Source: Opitutus sp. GAS368 (lineage in GTDB: Bacteria; Verrucomicrobiota; Verrucomicrobiia; Opitutales; UBA953). From it: a DNA stretch of 64,000 nucleotides. Numbering within the stretch: the stretch's first letter is position 1; each line of letters starts with the position of its first letter. Shown piece by piece: positions 39,975 through 47,121 of this stretch. The translations under genes and the position numbers were made by a program. The stretch lies in contig CAMBGQ010000005.1 of the NCBI GenBank assembly GCA_945866215.1, positions 1 through 64,000 of the forward strand, read 5' to 3'. The notes beneath the pieces were generated by a model. It searched no databases. It was not told the DNA's origin and saw nothing but the letters and a program-made list of their open reading frames with translations.

Positions 39975-41255
39975 ATGCGATACCCCCGTCGTTCTTTCCT
40001 GCGTAAGGCCGCGATCGCCGCCCTCGGCTTCACGATCATCCCGCGCCATGTCCTCGGCCGCGGCTTCGTCCCGCCCAGCGAAACCCTGAACCATGTGATT
40101 GTCGGGTGCGGCGGCATCTCCGCGATGCACATCGAACCGCGCATGACGGGCAAGAACCGGATTATCGGCCTCTGCGACGTTGATGCCCAGCGCATGCAGG
40201 CCAAGTTGGAACGGATCAAGACGGCCGGCGGCGGTACGCCGATGCTGGCCGGAGATTTCCGCGAGGTCATCGCGCTCCCTGATGCCGACGTCGTGCACGT
40301 CTGCACGCCGCCTCACTGGCATGGCGTCATCGCGGCAATGGCCGCCCGCCGTGGCAAGGCGGTCTGGTGCGAGAAGCCGCTGACTCGTACGATCGGCGAG
40401 GGCATCGCCCTGAGCCGCGTCGTGCAGCAGACCGGCGTACCTTTCCGCGTGAACACCTGGTTCCGCCTCAATCGCACCAACTACTACGGCGTGGGCCCGG
40501 CCCGCGAAATCAAGCGGGTCGTCGCGAGCGGCGTCTTGGGCGGTCCGCTGACCGTGCGCCTCGCGCCCGTCGGGGGCATCCAGTGGAAGGTCAATCTTTG
40601 GACCGGTAAGCCGGACCTCAAGCCTGAGCCCGTCCCCGCTCACCTCAACTGGGACATGTATTGCGGCCCGTCGCCGTTGATTCCTTATCACCCGCACCGC
40701 TGCCACGGTTCCTTCCGTGGCTACTGGAACTTCGACCAAGGCGGCCTCGGCGACATGGGCCAGCACTTCCTGGACCCGGTGCAATATTTCCTCGGCAAGG
40801 ACAACGAATCCCCCGTTACCGTCGAATGCGATGCGCCCCCGCAGGACGCCATGGCTTGCGGCGTCTGGAAGACCGTCACGATGACCTACAAGGACGGCAC
40901 GCGCATCATCCTGGAATCCGAACTCGCCGAGCGTAACCCCGAGAGTCCTTTCCTCGAAGGCCCGAACGGCAAGCTGTTCGCGGGTATGCGCTGCAACCGT
41001 CCCGAACTGTTGGCCAAAGCCGCCGAATACCCGCTCCCGGAATATCAGGAAGACGATTTCGATCTCTGTGCTCGGGAGAAGCGGCCATTCGGCTACGGCG
41101 TGAGCGAGGCTTTCCGCAGCTCGACGCTCGTGAACCTCGCCGCCCTGAGTGTCCGCCTCGGACGCCAACTCACGTTTAAGTCCGACACTTTCGTCGGCGA
41201 CGACCAAGCCAACCAGCTCGCATCCCCGGCCCTGCGCGGCAACTGGGCTCTCTGA
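39975..41255 (+). CDS. Tat-exported Gfo/Idh/MocA-family oxidoreductase
   Basis: 426 aa. The N-terminus MRYPRRSFLRKAAIAALGF has a twin-arginine motif and hydrophobic segment, so the enzyme is exported folded with NAD(P) bound, as known for other secreted members. The Rossmann motif NHVIVGCGGISAMH lies near residue 40, EKPLTRTIGEGIAL near residue 132, and the C-terminal alpha/beta domain (GDMGQHFLDPVQYFLG) near residue 258. The family oxidises sugars or cyclitols. No substrate is shown by context. It is co-directional with the exported gene 27 bases downstream. A palindrome and direct repeats precede it. Confidence 0.88.
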   Translation: MRYPRRSFLRKAAIAALGFTIIPRHVLGRGFVPPSETLNHVIVGCGGISAMHIEPRMTGKNRIIGLCDVDAQRMQAKLERIKTAGGGTPMLAGDFREVIALPDADVVHVCTPPHWHGVIAAMAARRGKAVWCEKPLTRTIGEGIALSRVVQQTGVPFRVNTWFRLNRTNYYGVGPAREIKRVVASGVLGGPLTVRLAPVGGIQWKVNLWTGKPDLKPEPVPAHLNWDMYCGPSPLIPYHPHRCHGSFRGYWNFDQGGLGDMGQHFLDPVQYFLGKDNESPVTVECDAPPQDAMACGVWKTVTMTYKDGTRIILESELAERNPESPFLEGPNGKLFAGMRCNRPELLAKAAEYPLPEYQEDDFDLCAREKRPFGYGVSEAFRSSTLVNLAALSVRLGRQLTFKSDTFVGDDQANQLASPALRGNWAL

Positions 41256-41282
41256 GCGAACTTCGCCGAATCCGCCCCGACC

Positions 41283-42170
41283 ATGAAATCCTTCCCGCTT
41301 TTCTTCGCCTGCCTCGCCGGTCTCGTCGGCATGGCCGCCGAAGCCCCGTCCGCCGCCACCTTCGCCGAACTTGCTGTCGCCGAGAAGCGCCTCGCCGCCC
41401 AGCAGGCGATCTTCGACCATGCGCGGACCTTCGTGAAAGCCTCGCCGGAGGCCAAGAGTTGGTTTGCGCGCGTCCGCGATGCGGCGAAGGCCGCTGCGGA
41501 TCCGGAAGTCCAGGCGGCCCTGCAGCAGATCCTGCTGCTGGATCCCAATCGCAAGCCCCTCCTGCCGCTTAATCCGAAGCTACCGAACACCTACGACGAC
41601 CCGGAAGGCACGACACCGGAGACCAAGCTCGCGCACCTCGAGCGCGTGCTCGATCAACGCCGTTCCGGAAAGGAATATCCGTTGACGACCGAAGAACTTG
41701 TCGCCCTCACGAGCCACGCGGACTTTGCGACCGCCCAGCGCGCGAACCGCCTGCTTCGTCGAGTCAAAGCCTCCGTCGCTGCGCCTCTGCTCTGGGATCG
41801 TCTGGCGAAATTGACGCAACGTTCGCAGGTGCAGGAGGTCGAGGATGAGATCCTCCGACTGCCGGTCGGCTTGGCGACGAAGTATTTGCCGACGATGCCG
41901 GCGGGCGAAGCGCTCGCCTCCAAGGCCGCGTGGGCCCGCCTCGTCGCCGTCCGTGCCAGCCGGTCTGGCAAGACGGGCGTCGCCCTCCGGGAAACCCTGC
42001 TGCCCATGCTCAAGGGACCGGCCAACGAGCTGACCGAAGCTGCTTGGGCTGCCGTGCCCCGGTTCTTCGATGAAGCGGACCGCGCCGCCCTGACCGAGGT
42101 CGCGCAAGGTCTTTCCGAACGCTTGGCGCCGAAGGCCAAGGCCGCGCTCGACGCCTTACCTGCCAAGTAA
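41283..42170 (+). CDS. Exported protein of unknown function
   Basis: 295 aa with a Sec signal peptide (MKSFPLFFACLAGLVGMAAEA). The mature part is mainly helical, with alternating short helices (LLRRVKASVAAPLLWDRL, WAAVPRFFDEADRAAL) that could form HEAT-like or armadillo-like repeats, but no family signature is recognised. It is 27 bases downstream of the Tat oxidoreductase, so the two probably share a transcript, and both products should reach the periplasm. Function unknown. Confidence 0.62.
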   Translation: MKSFPLFFACLAGLVGMAAEAPSAATFAELAVAEKRLAAQQAIFDHARTFVKASPEAKSWFARVRDAAKAAADPEVQAALQQILLLDPNRKPLLPLNPKLPNTYDDPEGTTPETKLAHLERVLDQRRSGKEYPLTTEELVALTSHADFATAQRANRLLRRVKASVAAPLLWDRLAKLTQRSQVQEVEDEILRLPVGLATKYLPTMPAGEALASKAAWARLVAVRASRSGKTGVALRETLLPMLKGPANELTEAAWAAVPRFFDEADRAALTEVAQGLSERLAPKAKAALDALPAK

Positions 42171-42223
42171 GCGCCGATTGCTTGTCGCTTGCCGAGAGGC
42201 GGGCAAGGGCTTGCTATGGTCGC

Positions 42224-42793
42224 ATGTCGCCCGCGGCCAACAAAGAGAACTCCCCGAACCTGCTTCTGGCTGGTTTCATGGGCACGGGTAAATCCGCGCT
42301 GGGGCGGAATCTGGCCATGCGTTGGCGCCGGCGTTTTTACGATACCGATGAACTGGTCGAGAAACTGGCGGGTACCTCGGTCGCGGACATCTTCGCTGAA
42401 CATGGCGAGGAGCACTTCCGTGCGCTCGAGCGCCAAGTCGTGGAGAGCCTGCTGCCGGAGCATGGCGCCGTCATCGCCTGCGGCGGCGGCCTGGTCGTCC
42501 CGCCGGGCATGGGAGCGCTCGTCCGCTCGAAGGGCATCATCGTCACGCTGTTCGCCTCGGTGGATACCATCTTACGGCGGACCGCCGGTAATTCGCGTCG
42601 TCCGCTGCTCAAGGGTGACGACCCCGAGGCCACGATTCGTGACCTCATGAAGAAACGCGAGCAGGCTTACCTGAAGGCCGGCATCGCCGTCTACACCGAT
42701 GGCCGCTCGTTGCAGCAGCTCTGCGTGATTGTCGAACGCGTCTACGAACGCGAGGTCCGGGCGTTGCTCAAGTCGCGTTCGAAGTCGGAATAG
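42224..42793 (+). CDS. aroK: Shikimate kinase
   Basis: 189 aa from the ATG at 42224; the ORF-track TTG start adds 14 residues. It has the P-loop GFMGTGKSALG, the shikimate-binding DTDELVE, the region GEEHFRALE (conserved FR), the CGGGLVV glycine-rich loop, and the lid arginine region SRRPLLKG. It phosphorylates shikimate in chorismate synthesis, linking with DAHP synthase at 45.6 kb. Its 3' end overlaps aat on the opposite strand by 26 bases. The C-terminal tail (ALLKSRSKSE) is basic. Confidence 0.95.
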   Translation: MSPAANKENSPNLLLAGFMGTGKSALGRNLAMRWRRRFYDTDELVEKLAGTSVADIFAEHGEEHFRALERQVVESLLPEHGAVIACGGGLVVPPGMGALVRSKGIIVTLFASVDTILRRTAGNSRRPLLKGDDPEATIRDLMKKREQAYLKAGIAVYTDGRSLQQLCVIVERVYEREVRALLKSRSKSE

Positions 42794-43451
42794 GCGCGAA
42801 AGCGTCGCCCGTGGGCGGTTGATCGCGGAACCGCTTCACCGCTTCGAGGAATTCGGTGCGCTCGACCGCGAAGGCGCCGAGGCTGGCGAGGTGCGGTGTC
42901 GGCATTTGGCAGTCGATGAGGACGTAGCCGCAGGCGGCTAACCGGGCGACTATGGTCGCGTAGCCGACTTTCGAGGCGTCGGTCCGGAGTTGGAACATCG
43001 ATTCGCCATGGAAGAGGCGGCCGAGGGCGACGCCGTAGAGGCCGCCGACGAGTTCGCCTCCCCAGCTGACTTCGACGCTATGGGCGATGCCGAGGCGGTG
43101 CAGTTCGCAATAGGCCGTGATCATCTCCTCGGTGATCCAGGTGCCGTGCTGCCCTCGGCGGGGGACTTCGGAGCAGCGACGCATCACCGTCTCGAACTGT
43201 TGGTCGAACGTGATCGACCAGCCCTTCTTGCGCATCGTCTTCTTCAGGCTATCCGTCAGGCGAAAATCCGAGGGCCGCATCACGAAGCGCGGATCTGGGC
43301 AGTACCATTTCACCGGCTCGCCCGCGGAATACCAAGGGAAGATACCGGCCCGATAGGCGACGATTAGGCTGGCGGCATCCAGCTTACCGCCGCGGGCCAA
43401 GGGCGCGCGAGCGGGGGCTTTTGACGGATCGCCTCGAGTCCATTCCTGCAT
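42768..43451 (-). CDS. aat: Leucyl/phenylalanyl-tRNA-protein transferase
   Basis: The ORF-track TTG start at 43487 is possible, but the ATG at 43451, with an AAGG before it, is preferred and gives 227 aa. The family motifs YRAGIFPWYSAGEPVKWYCPDPR, GQHGTWITEEMI, HSVEVSWGGELVGGLYG (N-rule transferase core) and FHGESMFQLRTDASK are all present. It adds Leu or Phe to N-terminal Arg/Lys of proteins, marking them for ClpAP through ClpS. No clpA or clpS is in the window. It converges with aroK with a 26-base 3' overlap. Confidence 0.93.
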   Translation of the reverse strand: MQEWTRGDPSKAPARAPLARGGKLDAASLIVAYRAGIFPWYSAGEPVKWYCPDPRFVMRPSDFRLTDSLKKTMRKKGWSITFDQQFETVMRRCSEVPRRGQHGTWITEEMITAYCELHRLGIAHSVEVSWGGELVGGLYGVALGRLFHGESMFQLRTDASKVGYATIVARLAACGYVLIDCQMPTPHLASLGAFAVERTEFLEAVKRFRDQPPTGDAFAPIPTSNAT

Positions 43452-43489
43452 CGCCGATACCTTCGGCGAGGGGGGAATGGCGGGCAAGA

Positions 43490-43825
43490 TTAGTCCTTGG
43501 TGATATTGTAGACCGACGGAATCGAGATACCGAGCTCAGCGGCGATCTCGCGGACCGGGGCGCCTTTCTTGCGCATGTTCTGGGCCTTGGAGCGCATGCT
43601 GTCCGAGATCTGGGCGCGGGCGCGGTTCGGGCGAGAGAGGAGCTTGATGAGGCGCTTGGCCAACTCGGGCTTCGACAGACCGGCGACCTCGCGCACGATC
43701 TGGGTTTGTCGTTCGCTGTGCAGGTCTACCCAAGTTTGCACCGCGAGGTCGCGAGCCTTAGCGAGGGCGGCGCGGACGTAGGCGTCTTTGGAGGTGAACA
43801 CTGCGGGATTGAGGTCGATTTTCAT
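43490..43825 (-). CDS. Small protein with C-terminal helix-turn-helix
   Basis: 111 aa. The last 45 residues (MRKKGAPVREIAAELGISIPSVYNITKD) form a helix-turn-helix of the Hin-recombinase/HTH_7 type, here without any recombinase catalytic domain. The N-terminal part is basic and helical (KPELAKRLIKLLSRPNRARAQ). It probably binds DNA. The gene lies immediately downstream of an AT-rich island with nested inverted repeats that could be its operator and leader. It may be a small regulator or the remnant of a mobile element. No transposase, att site or integrase was seen. Confidence 0.65.
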   Translation of the reverse strand: MKIDLNPAVFTSKDAYVRAALAKARDLAVQTWVDLHSERQTQIVREVAGLSKPELAKRLIKLLSRPNRARAQISDSMRSKAQNMRKKGAPVREIAAELGISIPSVYNITKD

Positions 43826-43830
43826 GAAGG

Positions 43831-43902
43831 GTTGAGGGTTCTTGTTTCTAGCTAAAGAGTGAATACACGATAGGTAGGTGTGTATATTCGAGAGACCTCA
43901 AC
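43831..43902. repeat. Nested inverted repeats in AT-rich island
   Basis: An outer pair GTTGAGG (43831-43837) / CCTCAAC (43896-43902) encloses an inner imperfect pair GAATACAC (43861-43868) / GTGTATATTC (43880-43889). The region is much more AT-rich than its surroundings and lies just upstream of the small HTH gene. It could be an operator or a folded RNA leader. Confidence 0.5.
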
Positions 43903-43925
43903 ATTTTATAACAAACCGAGTTGTC

Positions 43926-43948
43926 AAACTTTAGTAAAAGTTTTTTTG
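43926..43948 (+). terminator. Orphan intrinsic terminator on the + strand
   Basis: AAACTTT-AGTA-AAAGTTT is followed by a T-run on the + strand, but no + strand gene lies upstream; the neighbours on both sides are minus strand. It could end an unannotated small RNA or antisense transcript from the AT-rich island. Confidence 0.5.
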
Positions 43949-43985
43949 TCACCCTCCATCATTACTAAGTAACGTCGCTTTCGCC

Positions 43986-44963
43986 CTACTTGCTCCACTC
44001 GAGCATGCGGCGGAGTGGAATCTCGGCGGCGACGCGCACGTTTTCGTCCATCAGGATTTCCGGCGAGCCATCGCGTAGGCAATCACGCACTTTTGCTAGG
44101 GTATTCATCTTCATGAACTTGCAATCGTTGCATGAACAACGGTCGGTCGGTGCGGACACGAAGGTCTTTCCGGGCACTTCTTTGCGCAGGCGGTGGATCA
44201 TCCCTGATTCCGTAGTAATGATGATGGTATCGGCCGTCTGCTGCTTGCTCCAGCCGATCATCATTTCGGTCGAGCAAACCATGTCGGCCATGTCGCGCAC
44301 GGCTTCGGTGCATTCAGGGTGGGCCACAATGGGGGCTCCAGGATGCGCGGCCTTGGTGCGGAGCAGGGCTCCCGGCGTGAACTGTACGTGGGCGTAGCAA
44401 TTGCCCGGCCAGAGTTGCATCGAGCGACCGGTCTTGCCGGAGACCCAGCGGCCGAGGTTCTGGTCGGGGACGAACAGGATGTTCCGATCAGCGGGCACGC
44501 GGCTGACGATTTTCGAGGCATTGCCGCTGGTGACGATGACATCGCTGAGCGCTTTCACTGCCGCGCTACAATTGATGTATGCGACGACGTAAAGCGAAGG
44601 GTCCGCGGCTTTCGCGGCGGCGAGCTTCGAGGCGGGGCAGGAGTCGGCCAGCGAGCAACCTGCCGCCATGTCTGGCAAGAGCACGCGCCGCGTTGGGTTC
44701 ACGATCTTGGCCGTCTCGGCCATGAAATGCACGCCGCAGAAGACGATTGTCGACTGTTTCGCCTCGGCGGCCTTGTAGGCGAGGCCGAGCGAGTCGCCGA
44801 CGAAATCGGCGACGTTCTGGATGTCCTCGCACTGGTAGTTGTGCGCAAGGATGATGGCGTCCTTGGTCTTTTTGAGGGCGAGGACTTCTTTCTGCAGGTC
44901 GGACAGCGGCGTACCGCCCAAGGGCAGGGGAGGGAAGACGGCGGCGGCGGGAAACGGATTCAC
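43986..44963 (-). CDS. nadA: Quinolinate synthase
   Basis: The GTG at 44963 overlaps the fur-like stop (GTGA), giving 325 aa, a typical NadA length. The three conserved Fe-S cysteines are in VFCGVHFMAETA, in HPECTEAV, and in the CSCNDCKFMKMNTL region near the C-terminus. AIILAHNYQ at the N-terminus and LPDMAAGCSLADSC are also characteristic. NadA condenses iminoaspartate with dihydroxyacetone phosphate for NAD synthesis using a labile [4Fe-4S] cluster. No nadB or nadC is in the window. The ORF-track start at 45455 is out of frame with the real protein and antisense-like. Confidence 0.95.
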   Translation of the reverse strand: MNPFPAAAVFPPLPLGGTPLSDLQKEVLALKKTKDAIILAHNYQCEDIQNVADFVGDSLGLAYKAAEAKQSTIVFCGVHFMAETAKIVNPTRRVLLPDMAAGCSLADSCPASKLAAAKAADPSLYVVAYINCSAAVKALSDVIVTSGNASKIVSRVPADRNILFVPDQNLGRWVSGKTGRSMQLWPGNCYAHVQFTPGALLRTKAAHPGAPIVAHPECTEAVRDMADMVCSTEMMIGWSKQQTADTIIITTESGMIHRLRKEVPGKTFVSAPTDRCSCNDCKFMKMNTLAKVRDCLRDGSPEILMDENVRVAAEIPLRRMLEWSK

Positions 44964-45439
44964 GGGCGGGCGGCCCCGCGGCGGGGGCAGCGGTCGTTGA
45001 GGCAGGCGGCGGTGACTTGGAGTTTCTGCGAGATGGGACGCATGCCGTGCTTGGCGGCGACGGCCTTGCCGTACCATTCCATGAACGGGGCGTCGACTTC
45101 GACGATGGTCTCGCAGCTTTCGCAAATCAGCTGGGCGCGGAAGTTGGCGCCACCGGCTTCCGCGAGGTAATATTTCTGGTCGCGGCCGACATCGACTTCG
45201 CGGATCACGCTGCTGCCGATAAGCAGGGGGATGGCGCGGTAGATTGTGGCGCGGGAGACGCTGCGGTCCAAGGAGCGGGCTTTCTTGAGAAGGTCTTCCG
45301 CGGTGTAGTGCCCGGAGACGGTCCGGGCGGCCTCGAAGACCGCCATGCGTTGCCGCGTGGCGCGGAGGCCTTTCTGGGCGATGAACGCTCGGAAGGCTCC
45401 GGATTGCTCCGATGATTCGCTGGCGGTTGGCTTGGGCAT
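44960..45439 (-). CDS. Fur-family transcriptional regulator with altered metal-sensing site
   Basis: 159 aa. The N-terminal winged helix (RATRQRMAVFEAARTVSGHYTAEDLL) and SRATIYRAIPLLI follow the Fur/Zur/PerR fold. Two cysteine pairs (CESC and CLNDRC) match the structural zinc site. Where Fur proteins usually have the HHDHLIC sensory cluster, this sequence has NFRAQLIC, so the usual histidine ligands are missing. The next gene, nadA, starts within its stop codon. It may therefore regulate something other than iron, for example nadA itself. This is inference. The region upstream, divergent from aroF, has an AT-rich stretch but no clear Fur box. Confidence 0.85.
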   Translation of the reverse strand: MPKPTASESSEQSGAFRAFIAQKGLRATRQRMAVFEAARTVSGHYTAEDLLKKARSLDRSVSRATIYRAIPLLIGSSVIREVDVGRDQKYYLAEAGGANFRAQLICESCETIVEVDAPFMEWYGKAVAAKHGMRPISQKLQVTAACLNDRCPRRGAARP

Positions 45440-45559
45440 CCTCGAATTGAGACACTTTTGATACTTAAACCGTTCGCGTCAATACGGGACGCGTCATTGA
45501 CACCCCCCGCTTTAACCCCTTCATTTGCCCTCTTTTCCTTCAAGAAAGCCCATCTCCCG

Positions 45560-46630
45560 ATGACTCATAACACGGACGACCTTCGCATCCGCAGCCAGCT
45601 CCCCCTGCTGGCTCCTTCCCGCGTGCTCCAGGAGCTGCCCGTCTCAGAAAAGGCCGCCGAGGTCGTTGCGACAGCCCGCCGAGACGCCGCTAAGGTGATT
45701 TCCGGCCAGGATGACCGCCTGTTGGTCATCGTAGGCCCCTGCTCGGTGCATGACCCCAAGGCCGCCTTGGAGTATGCCGCGCTTCTGCAGGCCGAGGCCC
45801 GGAAGCATGCCGCCGACCTCCTCATCATCATGCGCGTCTATTTCGAGAAGCCGCGCACCACCGTCGGGTGGAAGGGCCTGATCAACGACCCGCAGGTCGA
45901 TGGCTCCTTCCATATTAACGACGGCCTTCGCCTCGCCCGTGGCCTGCTCGCGCAGATCGCCGAGATGGGCCTGCCGGCCGCGACCGAGTTCCTCGACCCC
46001 ATCACGCCCCAATACTTGGCCGACCTCGTCGGCTATGGCGCCATCGGCGCGCGCACGACCGAAAGCCAGATTCACCGCGAGCTCGCTTCAGGCTTATCGA
46101 TGCCCGTCGGTTTCAAGAACGGTACCGATGGCTCGGTCCAGGTCGCCGTCGACGCCTGCCTCTCGGCCCGCGCCTCCCATTGGTTCCCGTCCGTCACCAA
46201 GGAGGGCAGCGTCGCGATCTTCCAGACCGCCGGTAATCCGGATGCGCATGTCATCCTGCGCGGCGGTTCGCGGACTGGTCCGAACTACGGCGCCGAGTTC
46301 GTCACCGACGCCGCCGCCCGCATCCAGAAGGCTGGCCTGAATACCCGCCTCGTTGTCGATTGCTCGCATGGCAACAGCTCCAAGGACCATCGCCGTCAGC
46401 CGCTCGTGGCGGCCGACATCGCTGCCCAGGTGGGCGCCGGCACGCGCGTGATCGCCGGCGTGATGATCGAAAGCCACCTCGTCGAAGGCCGGCAGGATTG
46501 GAAAGGCCAAGAGGCCTCCGCCTACGGGTGCAGCATCACCGACGCCTGTATTTCCTTCCCGGAGACCGTTCCCGTCCTCGCCGGGCTCGCCGCCGCCGTC
46601 CGCGCCCGGCGCGTCCTCACTCCCGCCTGA
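45560..46630 (+). CDS. aroF: 3-deoxy-7-phosphoheptulonate synthase (class I DAHP synthase)
   Basis: 356 aa from the ATG at 45560; the ORF-track start adds 34 residues with no homology. Class I DAHP synthase motifs are clear: LLVIVGPCSVHDPKAALEYA near residue 55, MRVYFEKPRTTVGWKGLINDP near residue 95 (substrate Arg/Lys and metal Cys-like region), AIGARTTESQIHRELASGLS, GFKNGTDG and VDCSHGNSSKDHRRQP (metal His). It catalyses the first step of the shikimate pathway. The regulatory specificity (Phe, Tyr or Trp) cannot be read by eye. The downstream Lrp-type regulator starts 8 bases later. aroK is nearby but on another transcript. Confidence 0.94.
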   Translation: MTHNTDDLRIRSQLPLLAPSRVLQELPVSEKAAEVVATARRDAAKVISGQDDRLLVIVGPCSVHDPKAALEYAALLQAEARKHAADLLIIMRVYFEKPRTTVGWKGLINDPQVDGSFHINDGLRLARGLLAQIAEMGLPAATEFLDPITPQYLADLVGYGAIGARTTESQIHRELASGLSMPVGFKNGTDGSVQVAVDACLSARASHWFPSVTKEGSVAIFQTAGNPDAHVILRGGSRTGPNYGAEFVTDAAARIQKAGLNTRLVVDCSHGNSSKDHRRQPLVAADIAAQVGAGTRVIAGVMIESHLVEGRQDWKGQEASAYGCSITDACISFPETVPVLAGLAAAVRARRVLTPA

Positions 46631-46638
46631 TTTCCGCC

Positions 46639-47121
46639 ATGAACTCCGTACTCAAGCTCATCCTCGACGGGGAAGCCCTCGATACCCACCAGATTGGCCA
46701 GATCCTCGGACTCGGCGCCGAAGCCGTCGAGCGAGAGCTCACGGCCCTGCGCAAGCAAGGCGTCCTGCTGGGCATGCGTCCGGTACTCAACCCGAGCTAC
46801 GAGTCCGAACACCGCGTCCGCGCCGTCATCGAGATTAAGATTCGTACGGAGGGCGTCGGCGGCTTCGACGGCATCGCCGAACGCATCTCCAGTTTCGAAC
46901 AGGTAGAGAGCTGCTACTTGATGTCCGGCGGCTACGATCTCCTCGTCGTCGTCGCGGCCGACAACCTTTACAAAGTGGCCGGCTTCGTCCACGAACGCCT
47001 CGCTCGCATCGACGGCGTGCAGGGCACCTCGACGCACTTCTTCCTCCGTGCTTACAAGAAAGACGGTTTCATCGTGACCGCCGAGGGCTCCCGTCGCGAC
47101 CAGCCCTCGGTCAGCCCCTGA
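46639..47121 (+). CDS. Lrp/AsnC-family transcriptional regulator
   Basis: 160 aa from the ATG at 46639; the ORF-track start extends into the DAHP synthase gene. Residues 1-60 form a helix-turn-helix (LDTHQIGQILGLGAEAVERELTALRKQGVL), and residues 75-150 an RAM/AsnC ligand-binding domain (VESCYLMSGGYDLLVVVAA). It is 13 bases upstream of an aminotransferase gene. Lrp-type regulators often control such neighbouring amino-acid genes, so the aminotransferase and/or aroF are probable targets (inference). Confidence 0.88.
   Translation: MNSVLKLILDGEALDTHQIGQILGLGAEAVERELTALRKQGVLLGMRPVLNPSYESEHRVRAVIEIKIRTEGVGGFDGIAERISSFEQVESCYLMSGGYDLLVVVAADNLYKVAGFVHERLARIDGVQGTSTHFFLRAYKKDGFIVTAEGSRRDQPSVSP

Follow-up and report, generated by a model that had tools for sequence, protein, structure and literature searches.

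The AT-rich gap between nadA and a small helix-turn-helix (HTH) gene, at 43826-43985 of the window (the whole 64,000-nucleotide stretch of Opitutus sp. GAS368 analysed here), is very probably, to judge from its sequence and that of its relatives, the minus-strand promoter/operator region of a two-gene unit composed of the HTH gene and aat. The locus is composed as follows.

42768-43487, minus strand: aat (leucyl/phenylalanyl-tRNA-protein transferase; Pfam Leu_Phe_trans, 4e-70; synteny), directly downstream of the HTH gene.
43490-43825, minus strand: HTH gene, 111 aa, start at 43825 (Pfam HTH_23, E = 6e-7, above the cut-off).
43826-43985: gap between nadA and the HTH gene, AT-rich, both flanking genes on the minus strand.
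43986-44960, minus strand: nadA (quinolinate synthase; Pfam NadA, 4e-113; synteny), stop at 43986, upstream neighbour.

As called mechanically, the HTH and aat open reading frames are separated by 2 bp, and the two genes probably form one operon. The order nadA-gap-HTH gene-aat is syntenic in about 30 relatives of the genus, and the HTH gene of relatives is almost always located between nadA and aat. The initial annotation was right that the gap adjoins a small HTH-only protein gene on the minus strand and that no plus-strand gene precedes the hairpin in it, the neighbouring genes all being on the minus strand. The sharp AT-richness it reported was likewise borne out: GC content is 39% in the 166-bp stretch against about 63% in the genes of the region, and 0.41-0.43 in local windows against 0.60-0.68 in the flanking genes. 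At least as AT-rich were 11 of 368 upstream regions from 1.25 Mb of the own genome, the gap ranking 12th.

Comparison of orthologous gaps revealed a conserved element on the minus strand, with two adjoining features.

43904-43928, minus strand: conserved core TTTGACAACTCGGTTTGTTATAAAA, with a TTTGAC box at 43928-43923 and a TATAAT-like box within 43913-43904 (footprint, 28 orthologous gaps).
43896-43902, minus strand: third element, GTTGAGG (consensus NTTGAG), its TTG 27 nt past the start of TTTGAC.
43929-43948, minus strand: A-tract plus CTTTTACTAAAG, an A/T-rich stretch abutting the core on its upstream side.

TTGAC(A/T) is followed after 7-10 bases by TATWATAAA in the 28 gaps; of 32 relatives, 23 (distant clades included) have the TTG of the NTTGAG box at offset 27 and seven more have it within 2 nt of that position, counts that rest mostly on metagenome-assembled genomes (MAGs) of relatives that are not independent of each other (loci with organism names belong to Opitutae/Verrucomicrobia, mostly MAGs). 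The NTTGAG box keeps its offset whereas the AT-rich box appears to shift, and the element is therefore better described as an ungapped core of about 30 bp, with the consensus TTTGACA-N8..10-TATWATAAA-NTTGAG preceded by an A-tract, read on the minus strand in the direction of the HTH gene. The core is asymmetric, without a clean palindrome; in most relatives 80-100 bp separate it from the HTH start codon downstream, and the leader between the two is unconserved. Orthologous gaps without the core are those of L011, L069, L074 and L075, the last two from sister genus g16. The A/T-rich stretch may act as an UP element or as a dyad operator. In L014 and L059, the HTH upstream region contains a second TTTGACA (ATTGTTTGACAAAT), about 40 bp further downstream, which may be an additional regulator site.

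The core is specific to this place. Own-genome searches covered 1.25 Mb, taken as stretches, in which the position weight matrix (PWM) of the core scored 34.7 bits at the gap and 17.7 bits at the best other site (leaving aside an overlapping read at the gap site), the remaining scores being distributed as in the reversed control; a search allowing up to 3 mismatches gave a single match, the gap site. Among 55 genomes of the genus, matches with 0-1 mismatch show the form of the motif found at the HTH gene, and weaker ones are no commoner than in the control. The PWM and mismatch searches for a regulon thus yielded no further sites above background. Footprints of the glmM, cysK and phoB-like upstream regions in the genus contain different conserved blocks; since the core is single-copy and these blocks differ from it, we regard it as gene-specific and not as the generic promoter of the organism.

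Several other conserved or repeated elements were encountered. The phoB-like response-regulator gene (L229-L252; in the own genome L115 near 4811, minus strand) is preceded across the genus by a strongly conserved block, TTGNCACCTAACTCTGGCGCT, which resembles a Pho box. The cysK start codon (L201-L227) is immediately preceded by conserved TAATCYATTAATCATTACTYAACTACT repeats, and these in turn by a terminator-like hairpin that is also conserved. Outside the window, the own genome carries at L091:11646, L121:4793, L142:15815 and elsewhere a dispersed repeat of the form CCCGCCACCTGCCACCCGGGGCCGCCACCCGCCACCTGAAA; CAGGTGGC was counted 144 times in 1.25 Mb, with a 14-fold excess in upstream regions. 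This looks like an interspersed intergenic repeat family.

The initial annotation had centred on inverted repeats and on what it called a clear terminator hairpin with T-run on the plus strand.

43831-43837 and 43896-43902: GTTGAGG and CCTCAAC, arms of the outer inverted repeat.
43861-43868 and 43880-43889: GAATACAC and GTGTATATTC, arms of the inner inverted repeat, pairing only with a 2-base bulge.
43926-43932 and 43937-43943: AAACTTT and AAAGTTT, arms of the hairpin, with a T-run to about 43947.

The repeats are present, but gave no sign of exceeding chance: 19% of dinucleotide shuffles give a 7-bp inverted repeat with the wide spacing of the outer pair, any 7-bp repeat arises in 47%, and the inner pair is bulged. 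Gap alignment showed that neither the outer nor the inner repeat recurs in 30-odd syntenic relatives, both being private to the own genome, which answers in the negative the conservation check proposed with them. The inverted repeats of the gap are mostly chance. The right outer arm CCTCAAC is the third box, NTTGAG, read on the plus strand, and the supposed terminator is the plus-strand view of the A-tract and dyad upstream of TTTGAC. Stem and T-run of the hairpin exist, and only 0.4% of shuffles produce a 7-bp stem with a T-run, which is the point in favour of a small structured RNA or an orphan terminator on the plus strand; that reading is very unlikely. An intrinsic terminator follows a transcribed unit on its own strand and consists of a G+C-rich stem and a T-run, a combination not found here: the 7-bp stem contains one G-C pair and fails a terminator scan requiring at least 3. 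Outside this genome, the perfect hairpin was seen in just L005, L008 and L064, each without the same T-run; near kin retain the hairpin in part and have lost the T-run, and CTTTTACCAAAG is common to near kin only. As for an RNA, the gap lacks conserved pairing with covariation: the hairpin helix is 80% paired in the alignment without two-sided changes, paired cells over 14 close relatives amount to 60.5% versus 58.5% in shuffles, RNAalifold predicted zero pairs and no consensus structure for the gaps of relatives, Rfam gave no match at the gap, and fold z-scores (+0.13, plus strand; -1.04, minus strand) are no better than those of shuffles on either strand. A mobile-element remnant, suggested by an AT-rich stretch with inverted repeats, is scarcely credible, as about 30 species have a gap of similar length at the corresponding position, neither a transposase nor a target-site duplication is present, and the inverted repeats are confined to this genome.

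Operator for the HTH protein is the only function proposed by the initial annotation that gained support, from a conserved single-copy motif before the gene in most relatives; binding of the protein to it is what we infer. Such a conserved site linked to the gene of the regulator is what an autoregulatory operator would present. Transcription would start at TATWATAAA, a -10-like box, and proceed towards the HTH gene; TTTGAC and NTTGAG, whose TTG boxes are about 26 bp apart and flank TATWATAAA, would be contacted by a dedicated regulator. They are read as regulator contacts since an ordinary sigma-70 -35 box would need a wider spacing than the 11-13 bp between TTGAC and TATAAT; this short distance suggests an operator and not a standard -35 box. 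The regulator would most simply be the HTH protein itself, and its autoregulation through the core is a tentative possibility. Somewhat unlikely is that the core serves RNA polymerase alone, through an alternative sigma factor or a spacing of the group's own, without a dedicated regulator. The -35/-10-like letters and the A-tract upstream favour it, as does the faint resemblance of some relatives (e.g., L023) to the Bacteroidota promoter; one copy per genome argues against it, as does the finding that, among 400 upstream regions, neither TAnnTTTG nor TTGAC-N-TAnnnT at any spacing is enriched. Tests of spacing and k-mer enrichment over these 400 regions gave no clear vegetative promoter consensus; since none emerged, an unusual promoter is possible. 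A scan for sigma-70 promoters (16-18 bp spacing) found none in 41000-47000, and a literature search for start-site maps of Verrucomicrobiota found nothing for that group.

Leaving the own genome aside, the first search detected the HTH protein in 23 of 24 genomes of the genus; more were found in the genus and in g16, and the orthologues are 67-91% identical. The AlphaFold model of the protein (mean pLDDT 81, pTM 0.35) shows a long helix at the N-terminus and a three-helix HTH at the C-terminus (helices 13-48, 52-64, 75-86, 91-98, 102-109). Foldseek with this model gave nothing at E<=0.001 and weak, non-significant matches to TrpR, IstA and other HTH proteins; a PDB sequence search gave chance matches only. 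The protein is outside any named regulator family, and to our knowledge no operator is known for this HTH family. That it is a genus-restricted, one-target regulator of its own operon with aat, acting at a single site of two TTG boxes flanking the -10, is an unlikely reading of the sequence. aat belongs to the N-degron pathway. If autoregulation holds, the gap would offer a small pair of regulator and site for aat in freshwater Opitutae, whose promoters have hardly been described; otherwise it would be an ordinary promoter region, and the main lesson that repeats seen by eye were chance.

Three known systems bear comparison. Like autoregulated promoters of small HTH regulators in bacteria generally, the gap has a single-copy conserved site directly upstream of the HTH gene, overlapping a -10-like box; it differs in that its HTH protein is in no named family and the operator role is a prediction. 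The sigma-70 promoter is TTGACA-N17-TATAAT with a spacing of 16-18; the cores of relatives show nearly perfect letters in both boxes, whereas their spacing is 11-13 bp (to TATAAA) or 8-10 bp (to TATWAT). The Bacteroidota promoter is TTTG-N19-TAnnTTTG; in the core, as in that promoter, a TTTG box has a TTG box about 26 bp downstream of it, but the position of its TA varies among relatives and the motif is unenriched genome-wide (400 upstream regions).
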